From: an uncultured Bacilli bacterium
Lineage (GTDB): Bacteria > Bacillota_I > Bacilli_A > RF39 > UBA660
DNA length: 64,000 nucleotides
NCBI GenBank assembly: GCA_944371905.1
Contig: CALVYA010000008.1
Coordinates: 1-64,000, forward strand
Direction of reading: 5' to 3'
Both the position numbers and the translations under genes were made by a program. Below the pieces are notes generated by a model. That model ran no database searches. It was given only the letters and a program-made list of their open reading frames with translations, and was not told the DNA's origin. Of the stretch, positions 29,904-37,136 are shown one piece after another (positions within the stretch are counted from its first letter, which is position 1; each line of letters begins with the position of its first letter).

Positions 29904-31412
29904 CCTAATTATGTATGGATTGGAAATTGTTCCATCTCCTCGGGTAATTTCAACAGTAGATTTTAAATTAATAACAGGTCTAACACTTCTCATTCGATAA
30001 GCATAATAACTAGCCAAATGTCCATCAGAAAAAACACTACCAATCGCACTATTTAATTCTCGGAAAACGAAAGGAGAAAGCATCCAATAATTATCTCCTG
30101 TATATAAATAATATTCATCATTACCTAAAAAGTTAGAGCCACCTGCATACATTGCTTCATCTATTGTTATTAATCCTATTGGATAATCTAACGCTTTATT
30201 TCCTTTTGTACTATTTTTTGTTGTATATAAATCTTGATTTTGTGGACATAAAAATTGTGGATTCTTATTAAGATATAATCTATTATAGGTTCCATAATTA
30301 GTCTCATTTTCTCCATATCCTAATGCAGTATCATTTATATACCATGAGTTAGGTTCCTCTGCCATACTTCGATCCCCACAAAATCCACTATCGGCTAAAT
30401 AAGAAGCATAACTTGATAAATTCTCTTTATACCAATTATCTAATACTGTCTTTATTGTACTATTATTAATATTTGCATGTGTTTCTTCATAGGTATCACT
30501 ACCTGGTGTTCCATACATATATCCTAGATAGGCATTGTCATTATAATTAGTATTAAAAGTACTATTTCCTATTGCAGTTGCACCTCCTGTAGCATTAGGA
30601 GTTTCTCCTTGATAAATTAATCTTACTGATCCATCTTCATTGATTCTTATGATTCTCCAGTAGAATCCTGCAAAATATACATAATTATTCTCTACTGCTC
30701 CTCGATAATAATATGAAATTTGATTATTTTCTGTATTCTGTCTTGTATAATATAACCCTTTCGTTCCATCTTCTTCACTTGTCTTACTAAAATCAATGTT
30801 GGTATCACTCTGTATCTTATTATCATTTAATATCTTCTCTGGTAATGTATAGATATTTAATTCTGGGATTAATTCTCCATCTGGTGTTGGATTATTTGAT
30901 ACATATTGTCCAATATCTAACGTGATACTAATATCTTTAGTCTTTTCTTCTGGATCACTTGCAACACTGACATCATACCCTACTTTTACTATTACCGTTA
31001 CTTTGGGACATGTACTTTGTCCTTTGCAACTAGCAATTCTAGTTCCCTTTCTTATTCCTTCAAACCTTACATAAATAGCTTCACTTCCCGTAGATGTATA
31101 AGTTGCTCCTTTCACTTCTGCTTCGATATCTCCATAATTAGTGATATCTATCTCATACGTAATTTCATCTCCTGGTTGGACTAAATCTACTTCAAAGTTA
31201 GCCGTAGTTTTACTTACTGTAGGCGTTATTTTATTAGTGGCTCCTCCTTTTTGTTCTACCGTTCTTATATCACTAAACTCTACTTGCCAATTAGAAGTAA
31301 CCGCTGTACTTCCATTAATATTTAGACTAGTCGATAATAACGCATATCCTACTGCCATAAAAGCAATTACTATAACCATTATCATAATCACTTTAGTTTT
31401 CTTTCGATACAT
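29895..31412 (-). CDS. Exported surface protein with lectin-like (DUF6273-like) C-terminal domain
   Basis: 505 aa. N-terminal signal/anchor (IMIMVIVIAFMAVGYALLSTSLNINGS), a beta-rich domain (45-175), then a ~300-aa domain. That domain shows the pattern YYYRGAVENNYVYFAGFYWRIIRINEDGSVRLIY, DNWYKENL, YPIGLITIDEAMYAG, NYWMLSPF and SVRPVINLKS. The WxLSP...VRPVI tail resembles C-type-lectin-like DUF6273 domains. No LPxTG. It is paralogous to the truncated gene at the end of the window and more distantly to 41984-43090. The promoter contains a G12 tract, predicting variable expression. Confidence 0.7.
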   Translation of the reverse strand: MYRKKTKVIMIMVIVIAFMAVGYALLSTSLNINGSTAVTSNWQVEFSDIRTVEQKGGATNKITPTVSKTTANFEVDLVQPGDEITYEIDITNYGDIEAEVKGATYTSTGSEAIYVRFEGIRKGTRIASCKGQSTCPKVTVIVKVGYDVSVASDPEEKTKDISITLDIGQYVSNNPTPDGELIPELNIYTLPEKILNDNKIQSDTNIDFSKTSEEDGTKGLYYTRQNTENNQISYYYRGAVENNYVYFAGFYWRIIRINEDGSVRLIYQGETPNATGGATAIGNSTFNTNYNDNAYLGYMYGTPGSDTYEETHANINNSTIKTVLDNWYKENLSSYASYLADSGFCGDRSMAEEPNSWYINDTALGYGENETNYGTYNRLYLNKNPQFLCPQNQDLYTTKNSTKGNKALDYPIGLITIDEAMYAGGSNFLGNDEYYLYTGDNYWMLSPFVFRELNSAIGSVFSDGHLASYYAYRMRSVRPVINLKSTVEITRGDGTISNPYIIRTN

Positions 31413-31446
31413 ATTACCAACTCCGTTTTAATCTATCTCATATATC

Positions 31447-31477
31447 ATTATACCCCCCCCCCCCAGAAAATTTTCAA
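31447..31477 (-). promoter_or_regulatory. Promoter with G12 homopolymer spacer (phase-variation candidate)
   Basis: Minus strand TTGAAA (31472-31477), then ATTTTCT plus twelve G (31453-31464), then TATAAT (31447-31452). The spacer is 19 bp. Slippage of the G run would move it through the 17-bp optimum. Transcription would start near 31440, upstream of the surface protein. Confidence 0.75.
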
Positions 31478-31583
31478 TTAAATTTTTTAGGATCTGACAT
31501 TACTTGACAGAGTATAATTATCTATATTTTTATTTTATCAAAAATATCTTTCTCTTGTAATACTCCTATGCCCTATAAAATTC

Positions 31584-31613
31584 GACAAAAAAACTAACCC
31601 AAGGTTAGTTTTA
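31584..31613 (-). terminator. Terminator of the T4SS operon
   Basis: Minus strand AAACTAACCttgGGTTAGTTTTTTT, directly after the virD4-like stop codon. Confidence 0.8.
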
Positions 31614-31619
31614 TCTTTT

Positions 31620-33992
31620 TTAATCATCAAAGAAATCATCAAAGAATTTATTATCTTCTACTTCTTCATCAATTGTAATTGTTGCACCAGGTTTCTTTTC
31701 TTCTTCTTTTGTTTTATTGTTTAATGCAGTAGTTGGAACAAAAGTAGGTTCTTTAGATTCTTCTTTTTCAATCTTAGGAACAAAATTATTCATTTCTCGA
31801 TTTACTTTTTGTTCAATCATTCTACTTATATCCATACTATTAGAAGACTCTTTAGGCTTATTTGATATTTCACTATTGTGATTGTTATCTATTCTTTTAT
31901 CTTCAAAACCTACTCTATCAAATTCTTGTTTAATAGGTTCTCTTATAATTGATTGTTGTTTCTCATGATTTAAGTCATTGTTGATGGAATTATTGACATT
32001 AGAATTATCCTTTGGAGGTACTGATGATTTATTAATTTCTGGTGCCTTTGCTTTCTTCTCCTCTTCTTCAATCTCAGCAATTTTTGCATCAATTTTTTTA
32101 ATAAGTTCATCCATATTAATATCTGGTCCTGAAGCATTTCTAGGTGTTGAATTCGTTGCGGTGTGTGATGTAAAATTATTATTTGGATTTGTTATTGGTG
32201 GCATACCAGGATAAGCATTATTCATATTTGACATCATTCCACCACTTGGATTAGGATTTCCTCCGTTAGCCATCATTTCTTTTATCTTTTGTTGCCTTTT
32301 TTCTTTAACAAATTCTCTTACATCAAATACTGCAACTGGCTTTTTTTCACGTTCAGGATATTCAATTGGACCATATTTTCTACCCCAGTCAATCTTAAAA
32401 TCTGGGGTGAATGACGTTTTAAATGGTTGCATACGCATTCTTAATACAATCTGATCAAATTGTTTCATACGTTGTAAATCACTTACTGTTACTAATGGTG
32501 TTGATGCTGTCTTATCATCTTTTTTAGACTTTACTTCACCACATAATTTACTAATTTCTTCTAGTGCGGCTAACTCTGTCGAAATCAAATAAATTAAGTT
32601 ACCGCAATTACCTTTAATAGTTTCAGCATTATCTGCTCCATATACTTGCTTTAATTGAGCAAAATTTTGGATAATCATAGTAAATCTTATCTGTCTAGAA
32701 CGAGCGGCTGTAATCATAGTAGTAACATCTTTTAATGGCGGCATATTAGCAAACTCATCTAGTAAGAAGTTAGTTCTACATGGCAATTTACCACCATTAG
32801 ATTGAGCTACATCAATTAATGTTTCATAACATTGTTTAACAAAGATAGTAGCAAGAGAATGATATGTTTTCTTTTCATCTTGAATAATGATAAAAACTGC
32901 TGTTTTTTCTTTACCAATAGAATTCATATCAAAATCACTATAAGAAAGCATCTCTGACAAATTTTCTCGAGATGAAAATAATTTTATTTTTTGTTTGAAT
33001 ACAGCAATAATACTCCCCTTTGTTTCACTAGGCGCCATAATAGTTCCACTAGCATTAATATATGCTGCACTATTAGGATCTTTTAAATTAAAGTATTCCT
33101 TTACATACGTGGATGCTCCACATTTTTCTTCACCTACAGTAGTAGTTAAACTGATACTATTAATATTAATCTTATCTTCTGTCGTATCTTCAAACATTCC
33201 TAAAGCTAATCCAGAAAAATAGTCAGCTGATGTTTTTTCCCAAAATGGATCAGCATTTCCGTTATTCTCTTCATATAGGATATTAAGAGCTAAGTCATCT
33301 AATAACTCAATCGCTTTATCTTGATTACCACTTTTATATAAACGATATGGTAATGTTAATGGATTCCAAGCATTACCTTTTTGTGGATTACGGAAATTAA
33401 GTAAAATAATATTATATCCTTTTGCTTTTAACATACTACCAGTTTTTTCAAACAATTCACCTTTTGGGTCAGTACAAATAATTGACTCCCCTTTTTTAGC
33501 CAAAATTTTAATAGTAGGTAAAATAGTACTTACCGTTTTACCACTACCAGTAGCTCCTATTACAAGGTTATGATATTCACCATCATCAACCCAAAGCTCA
33601 CCATTTTTACTAATCAAAGGAATACCAGCATAATCACTTTTTTCATCAGTAGGATGAACACATTTTAATACTTTTTTCATTTCTTTTTCTTTAGCCCATC
33701 TACTATATCCTTTATCTTTTTTATTTAAAGTTAATCCTACTCCTTCTTCTCTTTCAAAAAAGTATGAGGATACGCTCATAAACAATGCTCCTAAAGCGAT
33801 AAGATAAAAAACAATTGTTTTAAATAAATTATCTGGTTCAAAAGCAGGAAATGGATTTAATCCTGCAAATCTTCCTTCAGTTGCTAATGTTGGTAAGTTA
33901 ATTACTCCAAGAGCAATAACATATAAAAGGAAAATTGCAAAAACTACAAATATTAATACATCTTGTGGTTCCGCTCTAAATCTTAGTTTCAT
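31620..33992 (-). CDS. virD4: VirD4/TraG-type coupling ATPase
   Basis: 790 aa. Two N-terminal membrane helices (about 12-32 and 58-77), Walker A IGATGSGKT (near 145), TDPKGELF, NAWNPL, Walker B FLLDEFANMPPL, and QNFAQLKQVYG. The last ~200 residues are low-complexity and charged (PNPSGGMMSNMNNAYPG..., ending EDNKFFDDFFDD). This is the T4SS coupling protein that brings substrates to the channel. The acidic disordered tail could be the substrate- or partner-docking region. Last gene of the cluster. Confidence 0.93.
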   Translation of the reverse strand: MKLRFRAEPQDVLIFVVFAIFLLYVIALGVINLPTLATEGRFAGLNPFPAFEPDNLFKTIVFYLIALGALFMSVSSYFFEREEGVGLTLNKKDKGYSRWAKEKEMKKVLKCVHPTDEKSDYAGIPLISKNGELWVDDGEYHNLVIGATGSGKTVSTILPTIKILAKKGESIICTDPKGELFEKTGSMLKAKGYNIILLNFRNPQKGNAWNPLTLPYRLYKSGNQDKAIELLDDLALNILYEENNGNADPFWEKTSADYFSGLALGMFEDTTEDKININSISLTTTVGEEKCGASTYVKEYFNLKDPNSAAYINASGTIMAPSETKGSIIAVFKQKIKLFSSRENLSEMLSYSDFDMNSIGKEKTAVFIIIQDEKKTYHSLATIFVKQCYETLIDVAQSNGGKLPCRTNFLLDEFANMPPLKDVTTMITAARSRQIRFTMIIQNFAQLKQVYGADNAETIKGNCGNLIYLISTELAALEEISKLCGEVKSKKDDKTASTPLVTVSDLQRMKQFDQIVLRMRMQPFKTSFTPDFKIDWGRKYGPIEYPEREKKPVAVFDVREFVKEKRQQKIKEMMANGGNPNPSGGMMSNMNNAYPGMPPITNPNNNFTSHTATNSTPRNASGPDINMDELIKKIDAKIAEIEEEEKKAKAPEINKSSVPPKDNSNVNNSINNDLNHEKQQSIIREPIKQEFDRVGFEDKRIDNNHNSEISNKPKESSNSMDISRMIEQKVNREMNNFVPKIEKEESKEPTFVPTTALNNKTKEEEKKPGATITIDEEVEDNKFFDDFFDD

Positions 33993-34040
33993 ATTATTAT
34001 TCCTTCTTTCAGTAAATTACTAAATTTATTTTACAATATT

Positions 34041-34538
34041 TTATTCAAAAATACTAGTTATTTCATTATCAAAATCTAAAGCTACATTATAAACTAATAT
34101 GGCTTTCGCAGTAAAAGTATATTTGTTATTATATTGATCTAGTAAAATATAACGATCACTTCCATTAAAATTTTGAATAGTATACTTTTGAATCACGGCT
34201 GTACGTATTTGATCCCTATTATTATCTATAAAAATTTCAAAATCGGAGTAATTTTTAAAGTTTTCTTTCGTTTCTGAATTTAATAAATCATATGCTTCGC
34301 GAGGAGATGAAATCATTTTACTTTTAAAATCAACAAAATACCTTTGAATTAACATTTCTGTAGTAACATTAACGATTTGAAATTCATTATATTCATATTT
34401 ATCTTTTACTTCTTCTGGCACACTAAATTCATCATTACCATCCTCAATAAAAAAGCCTTTAATTAAAAATGCTACAACTCCACACACTATTACGATAATT
34501 ACGCAAATAGCAATTTGTTTCACTAAATTAGATCTCAT
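34041..34538 (-). CDS. VirB8/TcpC-like bitopic protein (NTF2-like)
   Basis: 165 aa from ATG 34538 (GGAGG 9 nt upstream; the longer frame to 34559 lacks a site). One N-terminal helix (QIAICVIIVIVCGVVAFLIKGFF) and a soluble alpha+beta domain (LIQRYFVDFKSKMISSPREAYDLLNSETKENF, YTFTAKAILVYNVALDF) of the kind seen in VirB8/TcpC scaffold proteins. It overlaps its upstream sister gene by 11 bp. Assignment rests on topology and neighbourhood rather than strong motifs. Confidence 0.6.
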   Translation of the reverse strand: MRSNLVKQIAICVIIVIVCGVVAFLIKGFFIEDGNDEFSVPEEVKDKYEYNEFQIVNVTTEMLIQRYFVDFKSKMISSPREAYDLLNSETKENFKNYSDFEIFIDNNRDQIRTAVIQKYTIQNFNGSDRYILLDQYNNKYTFTAKAILVYNVALDFDNEITSIFE

Positions 34539-35025
34539 CAAAATATACCTCCACTTCACTAGGTATTACAGAATAAGTATTATTATCAACATTTAGTTTC
34601 ACAATCAATCCATATTCTATTTTTTCGCTAGTAAATTCATCAAGTTCTTCTATTAGATCTCCCTTAACATAATAAGTATATTTTTCTTTTTTATCTTGAA
34701 GCATTTGCTGAGCAGTAAAAGAATAATTACCAGATAACTTTATATTATTAGCTAAAACATTATTAATTGTTATTCCATTATCTTCTTTGTACTTATCATC
34801 GATCACATTGTATAAAGATGTACTATCTTTAGCCACAATTAAACCAATATATTTATTGACACAACTTTCTACAGTAAAAAAGATATTAGCATTAGTAACA
34901 TACTCTACTTCTATTTTTTCTTCTTCTAGACTATTTTTGTATAAAGAAAAAGCAAATAATCCCCCAAAAATAAGAAGTGAAAATATTATTACTACTAGAA
35001 AAATTTTAAATGACGTTTTATCCAT
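34528..35025 (-). CDS. Second VirB8/TcpC-like bitopic protein
   Basis: 165 aa with the same plan as the next gene: membrane helix (FLVVIIFSLLIFGGLFAFSLY), then a ~125-aa exported domain (CVNKYIGLIVAKDSTSLYNVIDDKYKE, YSFTAQQMLQDKKEKYTYYVKGDLI) ending in beta strands. Tandem VirB8-like pairs could form a hetero-oligomeric scaffold. Family assignment is inference. Confidence 0.55.
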   Translation of the reverse strand: MDKTSFKIFLVVIIFSLLIFGGLFAFSLYKNSLEEEKIEVEYVTNANIFFTVESCVNKYIGLIVAKDSTSLYNVIDDKYKEDNGITINNVLANNIKLSGNYSFTAQQMLQDKKEKYTYYVKGDLIEELDEFTSEKIEYGLIVKLNVDNNTYSVIPSEVEVYFDEI

Positions 35026-35048
35026 AAAATCACCCTTCTTTTATTCTT

Positions 35049-37136
35049 TTACCAACTAGAAACATCATAATATTTCACAGGATTCCCAGCAATATAACTT
35101 AATGGATCGTATTTGTAGTCTCCTTCTAAAAATAATTCATATTCTTCTGCTCTTCTTAACTTTAATCCATATACTTCTTGATACACTCCATCAATAGTAG
35201 CATGTGTACATCTACTCATCTCATTCCATAATGCTTTGGAATCACCATTCGTACCATATGCTACTAACGTAGGAGCTGCCCATCCAGGTCCACAATTATA
35301 CATTAAACTCAAAATAGCATCATCTTGGTTTTTAGTAAGCGTAATATTATAATTTGCTTTTACAGTTGCTAATGTATTTCTAGAACCAGACATATATTGA
35401 TTAAACATTTTATCAACAATTTGCATAGGAATTCTACTACCAACAGTAACTGGAGTATCATAAATATCAGTATATAGTTGAGTTCCACTAGAATTAACAA
35501 TTACAATACCATAACCAACAGTTAATACGCCATCTCCTCCATCGTATACAACATAGTTATTTCCATCGACATATTCACCACTTACTCCACCTTCCATGGT
35601 TTTGATCCATTCAATAAAAGCATCAGAAGAAGGTCTTGGATTGTCTGGATCCACATATAACTCCGGATCAACTATAAACAAAGAAGAACTTCCTCCAATA
35701 CGAACTTCAAAGTGCAAATGCGCTCCAGTGGAATTACCACTATGTCCCATTTTAGCAATTACTTGTCCTTGTTCTACCGTATCACCAGCCATAACAGTAA
35801 TGGAATTTTGAGCTAAGTGAGCATATAATGTATACTCTCCACCACCATGATCAATGATCACATAGTTACCATACCCACCACCATCATAATTTCCTAAATA
35901 TCCATTATCAGGAAAATTAGTTTGACTTTTACTAGTAGGATAAACAACTGTACCACTACGCGATGCAATTATATTAATACGGTTTAATGCATTACTACCA
36001 CTAATATCAAGGCCTTCATGCAATTTTCCCCAGCGCATTTCATATCTACTGGTAATAACTGTCGGTGTTGGATCTCCACTAGCAAATAATTTACCATTTT
36101 CCATAGTAGTTACATCACTACCTATTGGCCACCAATACCCACTTCCAACACTATACATACCAAATAAATCATCACTATCAGCTACTTGTAATAAACTTTC
36201 ATAATATAAGTATATTTCTTGAATAATTTCATCGATCTTCTCATCGTTTTCTCCATTATTAGAATTAGGATTTACCATATATTCATTATAGAAATTAAAT
36301 ATAAAACCTTCATCAATCAAATTCCAATAATAAGTACTTCCACTGTTATCATCATCCATATTACCAATTTCAGTGGATAATGAATAACTCTCGCCTTCCA
36401 TTTCTTCTGATACACATTTGTAATTAGCTTCTACTGATATACCATCATTACTGGCTATTTCACGCATAGTATCTGATTTATAATTACACTGCTTGGTAGT
36501 CATAATTTGATATTGAGCTAATATTGAAACTTGACTTTTTAAATAGTCCATATTTTGAACCACAGTATCTTCTTCACTATCAATATCTTCTACGTCATTA
36601 TATCCTACTAAAGTTGCTAATATTAACACTCCATCAATATCTACTTTTCCACTATAAGTAGACATAACACTAGCTATCTCTTTACGTAAATCCTCATATA
36701 CATCTTCACCATTACCACGTCCACTAATAGTGTCTTTACTAAAAATCATCACAAAAAATAGTAAAATAATCAAAATTGGTGCAGCGATGATAGCAATATT
36801 TCTTAAAACTGTTTTATTAGCGATCACTTTCATAACATTAGCAACTCCTTCTCTAACAGAAGAAGAAGATGCTGCAGAATCTAATGCCTCTCTACCAGTT
36901 TCAGTCTCTAAGATTCTTTCAGTCGCTGCTTTAGGTACACCAAAACTTTGGGCACCAGTTTTTACACCTTCTTTTATAGCATTTCTTTTCATTCTATTTT
37001 TCACTGCTTGTCCTGATGCCATATTGTTTTTAAATTGATTCTGTCTAGGATCAAAAGAAGGTGATGAAGCAGCAGATCGATTCAATTTACCATGATTATT
37101 AACATTATGATTTGGATTATTTGAATTATCAGCCAT
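35049..37136 (-). CDS. VirB1-like bifunctional wall hydrolase (M23 peptidase + lysozyme domain)
   Basis: 695 aa. Long Asn/Gln-rich cytoplasmic N-terminus, membrane helix (about 112-132, IAIIAAPILIILLFFVMIF), helical linker, M23 endopeptidase (HEGLDISG, GNYVIIDHGGGEYTLYAHL, STGAHLHFEV) and a C-terminal GH24/phage-lysozyme-like domain (IKTMEGG, LTVGYGIVI, ALWNEMSRC). It should cut both peptide and glycan of peptidoglycan to open a path for the secretion channel, as in Gram-positive conjugation systems. Confidence 0.88.
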   Translation of the reverse strand: MADNSNNPNHNVNNHGKLNRSAASSPSFDPRQNQFKNNMASGQAVKNRMKRNAIKEGVKTGAQSFGVPKAATERILETETGREALDSAASSSSVREGVANVMKVIANKTVLRNIAIIAAPILIILLFFVMIFSKDTISGRGNGEDVYEDLRKEIASVMSTYSGKVDIDGVLILATLVGYNDVEDIDSEEDTVVQNMDYLKSQVSILAQYQIMTTKQCNYKSDTMREIASNDGISVEANYKCVSEEMEGESYSLSTEIGNMDDDNSGSTYYWNLIDEGFIFNFYNEYMVNPNSNNGENDEKIDEIIQEIYLYYESLLQVADSDDLFGMYSVGSGYWWPIGSDVTTMENGKLFASGDPTPTVITSRYEMRWGKLHEGLDISGSNALNRINIIASRSGTVVYPTSKSQTNFPDNGYLGNYDGGGYGNYVIIDHGGGEYTLYAHLAQNSITVMAGDTVEQGQVIAKMGHSGNSTGAHLHFEVRIGGSSSLFIVDPELYVDPDNPRPSSDAFIEWIKTMEGGVSGEYVDGNNYVVYDGGDGVLTVGYGIVIVNSSGTQLYTDIYDTPVTVGSRIPMQIVDKMFNQYMSGSRNTLATVKANYNITLTKNQDDAILSLMYNCGPGWAAPTLVAYGTNGDSKALWNEMSRCTHATIDGVYQEVYGLKLRRAEEYELFLEGDYKYDPLSYIAGNPVKYYDVSSW

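Follow-up and report, generated by a model that had tools for sequence, protein, structure and literature searches.

We propose that the run of twelve G residues between the -35 and -10 elements of a sigma-70-type promoter in the window (the whole stretch of 64,000 nucleotides that was analysed) is a slippage switch, and that it belongs to a set of such switches spread over the genome and acting on a family of exported proteins that is diversified by a diversity-generating retroelement (DGR). We give this reading a probability of roughly 0.8. The promoter set, its convergent use, the conservation of its spacer, its insulation and the DGR were read from the sequence, and from these we infer slippage within the population, its consequence for expression and the length at which the promoter is ON. 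In the proposed mechanism, gains and losses of Gs during replication would alter the spacing between -35 and -10, and hence the transcription of that one gene; in this way the G-tract promoters would independently control the members of a large exported-protein family.

A G tract in the promoter spacer of the window gene

On the minus strand, the region upstream of the window gene reads TTGAAA-ATTTTCT-G12-TATAAT followed by ACGGAG, with the ATG 40 nt past the tract (Table 1). The original prediction had placed a G12 tract between TTGAAA and TATAAT on this strand, in a spacer of 19 bp, and this is exact by coordinates (31447-31477), the spacer being made up of the 7-nt linker and the 12 Gs. The window has a GC content of 27.6%, and the tract is the sole G/C run longer than 6 in its 64 kb (the next longest being 6); a Markov estimate gives an expectation of 4e-5 runs of at least 12 Gs per window and 8e-4 per genome.

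Table 1. Coordinates of the features discussed in the text (window positions unless a contig is named).
Feature	Position	Strand	Remarks
G12 homopolymer tract in promoter spacer	31453..31464	-	C12 on + strand
-10 element TATAAT, abutting tract	31447..31452	-	Identical in 15 G-tract promoters of the genome
-35 element TTGAAA, 7 nt ahead of tract	31472..31477	-	Hexamer and 7-nt linker common to most paralogue promoters
7-nt linker ATTTTCT, from -35 to tract	31465..31471	-	Between genomes, linkers and tracts compensate each other in length
Ribosome-binding site GGAG within ACGGAG	31421..31424	-	Read from sequence; common to paralogues
Terminator-like inverted repeat AACTAACCTTGGGTTAGTT and T run	31590..31612	.	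Upstream of promoter; putative insulation; read from sequence
Gene for a predicted exported surface protein of 505 aa	29895..31412	-	Product with a hydrophobic N-terminus and a conserved domain at the C-terminus
Hypervariable C-terminal stretch, aa 443-478	29979..30086	-	From alignment; position corresponds to the retroelement variable region in the C20 paralogue
Second paralogue, 57% identical, truncated by contig end	62839..64000 (contig coordinates 62839-64056)	-	
Complete diversity-generating retroelement beside a tract paralogue	G000 contig C20:12059-8354		Outside window

Tract promoters throughout the genome

The genome that contains the window (G000; 1.29 Mb in 43 contigs) has 19 runs of at least nine Gs, compared with an expectation of 0.18. 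Fifteen of them directly abut a TATAAT, and 17 lie in a recognisable promoter with TTGAAA 7 nt ahead (the exceptions being one mutated -35 and one longer linker); the remaining two lie at contig ends and are damaged. Wherever the gene downstream of a tract in this genome is intact, it is paralogous to the window gene, and paralogous matches put the family at about 45 members or fragments. Inside contigs the tracts are 10, 11, 12 (mostly), 13 and 14 Gs long, all lengths given here being MAG consensus values. Contigs often end at tracts, which makes some lengths unreliable, and the contig-end tracts of 14-18 Gs with junk flanks (on C7, C22, C30 and C40) were treated as such. Copies with similar flanks differ in their number of Gs, both in this genome (10-14) and in the congeneric genomes G004 (9, 11, 12 and 13) and G002 (10-12). 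The slipped-strand switching that had been predicted for the tract thus gains good comparative support, from the 19 tracts, nearly all of them in one kind of promoter, from lengths of 9-14 between similar copies, from the prevalence of a hydrophobic N-terminus in the products (below) and from convergent use on unrelated genes whose products are predicted to be exported.

In G000, all 14 of the tract promoters scored have a terminator-like hairpin with a T run in the 150 nt upstream; 33/35 in G162 (a genome of another genus) and 10/11 in G004 have one even within 45 nt upstream. As background, such sites occur in 3-5% of random stretches of 45 nt and in about 20% of those of 150 nt, although these include coding DNA and the excess of terminators is therefore somewhat overstated. 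Such terminators would isolate each switched gene from its neighbour and, together with tandem arrays at 1-kb spacing, they mean that each gene would be switchable alone. Arrays of this kind are extensive in G162, which has 76 G9-type promoters (on contig C3 among others) in tandem arrays of genes of about 1 kb.

Spacer length and the active state

The 19-bp spacer had been read as two Gs above an optimal 17. Ordinary TTGACA-like promoters in the examined DNA of G000 do peak at a spacer of 17; for tract promoters, however, 19 is the modal length, and it is held by compensating lengths of linker and tract: 7+12 in G000, 8+11 in G002 and G004, 9+10 in G136, and 10+9 in G162 and G122. Medians from nine genomes give a slope of -1.09 (r -0.96) for linker versus tract, which keeps the spacer near 19; the G162 rows of this regression were mostly entered as a count from a list, and independent parsing of 37 G162 tracts put 35 at a spacer of 19, with G9 though their linker sequences differ, and two at 18. 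Because of this compensation, 19 is not simply a broken 17. The near-uniformity of G162 in spite of its differing linkers indicates that slippage is slow or strongly selected there, and so sharp a mode might itself mark 19 as the active length.

The main rival to an active length of 17-18 is a slippage switch that is fully ON at 18-19 bp, the long G:C tract altering helix geometry; the window gene would then be ON at G12, and longer or shorter tracts would be OFF states. A mode of 19 in almost every genome, whatever the linker, is as expected for a selected active length, and in meningococcal porA the high state is the longer 11G tract (PMC3639595). Against this stand the 17-bp peak of ordinary promoters and two groups of tract genes found at 17-18, namely those with interrupted tracts and those in DGR cassettes (described below). 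Interrupted tracts, which no longer slip easily, have a spacer of 18 in 7 of 11 cases, whereas only 17 of the 60 pure tracts have spacers of 18 bp or shorter (genus; p 0.036), the comparison being a small one. An ON state at 18-19 is quite possible, although we lean against it. The interrupted tracts and the cassette genes suggest 17-18 as the active length; our own inference is that a promoter with a spacer of 19 is in a low or intermediate state, from which one slip would bring it into that range. In most copies, the window gene with its 12 Gs and spacer of 19 among them, the consensus would then probably be such a state, with a single slip leading to an active 18 (in the 17-18 range).

Recurrence in other genera

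Each of the five genomes of the genus has the pattern GGGGGGGGTATAAT, in 2-28 copies. In the family it turns up in 22 of 192 genomes, which represent 21 of 148 genera, and a single genome can have as many as 76 copies; a reversed-pattern control gave zero in every genome. In other genera the -35, the linker and the downstream proteins differ, and the tract precedes unrelated genes for predicted exported products: short proteins ending in ARAVVEI, pilin-like proteins and NPATGDN-anchored proteins. When one genome of each GTDB species was scanned, further Bacilli MAGs and several Clostridia proved to have the arrangement as well, for the most part ahead of genes for exported proteins. Across the family, 86 of 88 tract genes encode a hydrophobic N-terminus, compared with 24 of 59 genes in the window (p ~1e-15, which overstates independence since many of the 88 are paralogues); the other two lack one, and not every tract gene is exported.

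These results bear on a reading in which there is no switch, the G tract being a regulator binding site or geometry element (e.g. for a MerR-type activator, with 19-bp spacers) and the tract genes an ordinary regulon. Uniform 19-bp spacing, near-uniform G9 in G162 and conserved upstream sequence in the G000 paralogues all fit such a site, but the spacer contains no dyad, the linker and -35 vary between genera while the purity of the tract persists, unrelated genes have acquired the tract, and copies within one genome have 9-14 Gs. The genera have in common where the tract lies and that the product is a surface protein; this is easier to reconcile with contingency loci than with a single inherited site for a regulator, and we consider a regulon improbable. 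That the tracts and their lengths are products of homopolymer assembly or sequencing is scarcely credible: many contigs end at tracts and low-complexity junk follows some of the terminal ones, but the majority are internal to their contigs and flanked by an intact promoter and gene, which is seen in genera and assemblies that are independent of one another, and together with the zero reversed control this already contradicts an artefact as far as the existence of the tract is concerned.

The scans also gave several separate observations. G122 has a second promoter type (e.g. C1:45851 and C4:24809), consisting of TTGACT, an 8-nt linker, G9 and TTATAAT, in which one base separates the tract and the -10. 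Among named Clostridia, Alterileibacterium, Peptoniphilus and Aedoeadaptatus have repeated poly-G promoter spacers of varied lengths before related exported proteins, and these are candidates for a culturable model of the switch. Viral contigs gave ten matches to the pattern, which were rejected as all of them lack the promoter context of this family. A literature search for RF39 together with phase variation found nothing.

The window gene, its product and its site

The product of the window gene had been predicted to be an exported lectin-like protein. Its hydrophobic N-terminus bears out the first half of this description, whereas the lectin-like half stays putative: the protein has no Pfam or NCBIfam family match, a profile search of the PDB gave no sequence match, and an AlphaFold model of a candidate CTLD built from six sequences was poor (pLDDT 41) and was not used. 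The only hint toward a lectin-like protein is a sub-threshold DUF6273 match in a relative.

The gene is flanked by a T4SS coupling-protein gene and a BadF/BcrA-type ATPase gene, and T4SS-like genes (coupling protein, M23/lysozyme protein) occupy 31620-37136, immediately upstream of it. At the same site in G001, where the coupling protein is 91% identical, just a 3' remnant of the surface gene remains; in G002 the site is empty, and in G004 it holds a different gene. The site is therefore occupied, reduced to a remnant, empty or replaced among congeners, i.e. family members come and go there, which suggests frequent gain and loss of such genes after terminators (window 31413-31620; G001:C1 past the coupling gene). 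An intact orthologue of the window locus for the comparison of tract lengths was found in none of G001, G002 and G004.

A retroelement beside a paralogue of the window gene

The single RVT_1 match in the genome is on contig C20, where it directly follows a tract paralogue. This paralogue and the RT are separated by a template of 104 bp and an ORF of 112 aa that resembles bAvd (PF22296, E 2.4e-6, below the curated cut-off), and the C-terminal part of the RT matches MutS domain I (PF01624, E 1.3e-6). The arrangement is that of a DGR, in which an RT adjoins a template and a variable region with adenine-specific differences; here 16 of the 17 differences between the two fall at template adenines. 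The DGR would thus rewrite the 3' end of another gene of the window gene's family. That gene has a G10 tract and hence a spacer of 17, the sole 17 in G000. We rejected the window gene itself as a current target of the known template, as 51% of its non-A positions match versus 99% for C20; judged by its sequence, it is a member of the protein family of the DGR target.

Retroelements accompany tract genes in other genomes. Template/variable pairs lie by an RT in G002 and G004. In G162, whose tract-gene family is non-homologous, a DGR of the same layout lies within the tract-gene array; a number of tract genes far from it agree with its template apart from 0-3/71 non-A mismatches, and the cassette gene has G8 and a spacer of 18. 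The association of shorter spacers (17 in C20, 18 in G162) with the DGR was noticed post hoc and is suggestive. In G001 there are three templates, with no fewer than eight variable regions that show an A bias, and several of its DGR-target genes have degenerate or tract-free promoters; since targets there often lack an intact tract promoter, coupling of the two layers is not universal. A literature search for work joining G-tract promoters and DGRs found no paper.

Taken together, slippage of the G tracts would set which gene is expressed and the DGR would set the form of the binding tip, giving surface variation in two layers. A fuller version of this scheme, which we put forward tentatively and at a little under even odds, is two-layer antigen variation in which tens of genes are switched by slippage (19 being low and 17-18 on), the DGR hypermutates the tip of the gene in the on state, and the whole has evolved at least twice with unrelated families.

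Comparison with known systems

In a few pathogens, promoters switched by poly-G are known, each as a single locus. Mycoplasma vlp and vlhA are families of variable surface lipoproteins in which each gene has its own promoter-region repeat, of poly-A or GAA. The present system shares with them large surface families, small AT-rich genomes and a per-gene repeat in the promoter region; it differs in having poly-G, non-homologous exported proteins and a DGR where vlp and vlhA have poly-A or GAA and lipoproteins.

The closest single locus is porA of Neisseria meningitidis, in which 11G gives high expression, 10G 2-fold lower and 9G 13-fold lower expression (PMC3639595). In both, the poly-G lies between the -35 and -10 of a gene for a surface protein, with 9-11 Gs in porA and 9-14 here. 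Like porA, the window locus has a homopolymer of at least eight residues between -35 and -10, a tract length that differs between related copies (9-14 Gs among paralogues and congeneric genomes) and, to judge from the hydrophobic N-terminus, a surface or exported product. However, porA is a single gene whose expression is graded by tract length (PMC3639595), whereas the present system comprises a paralogous family and unrelated exported genes, compensating linkers, insulating terminators and a DGR. The DGR in turn resembles those with cellular surface targets (PMC8144416) in its RT, adenine-mutable template, 3'-end variable region and Avd-like ORF, and differs in that its target family is also under G-tract promoters; the main text of that survey makes no mention of phase variation or promoters (PMC8144416).

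Implications

Genome-wide sets of poly-G promoters have evolved repeatedly in one uncultured family, on gene families that are also targets of retroelements. The spacing rule that they follow (linker plus tract equal to 19, or 18 where the tract is interrupted) makes the effects of G-tract spacing directly testable. It appears that the organism varies its surface at two levels, in the choice of the protein that is made and in what that protein looks like, and, if slippage is true, lineages regarded as simple commensals would be running combinatorial surface variation.
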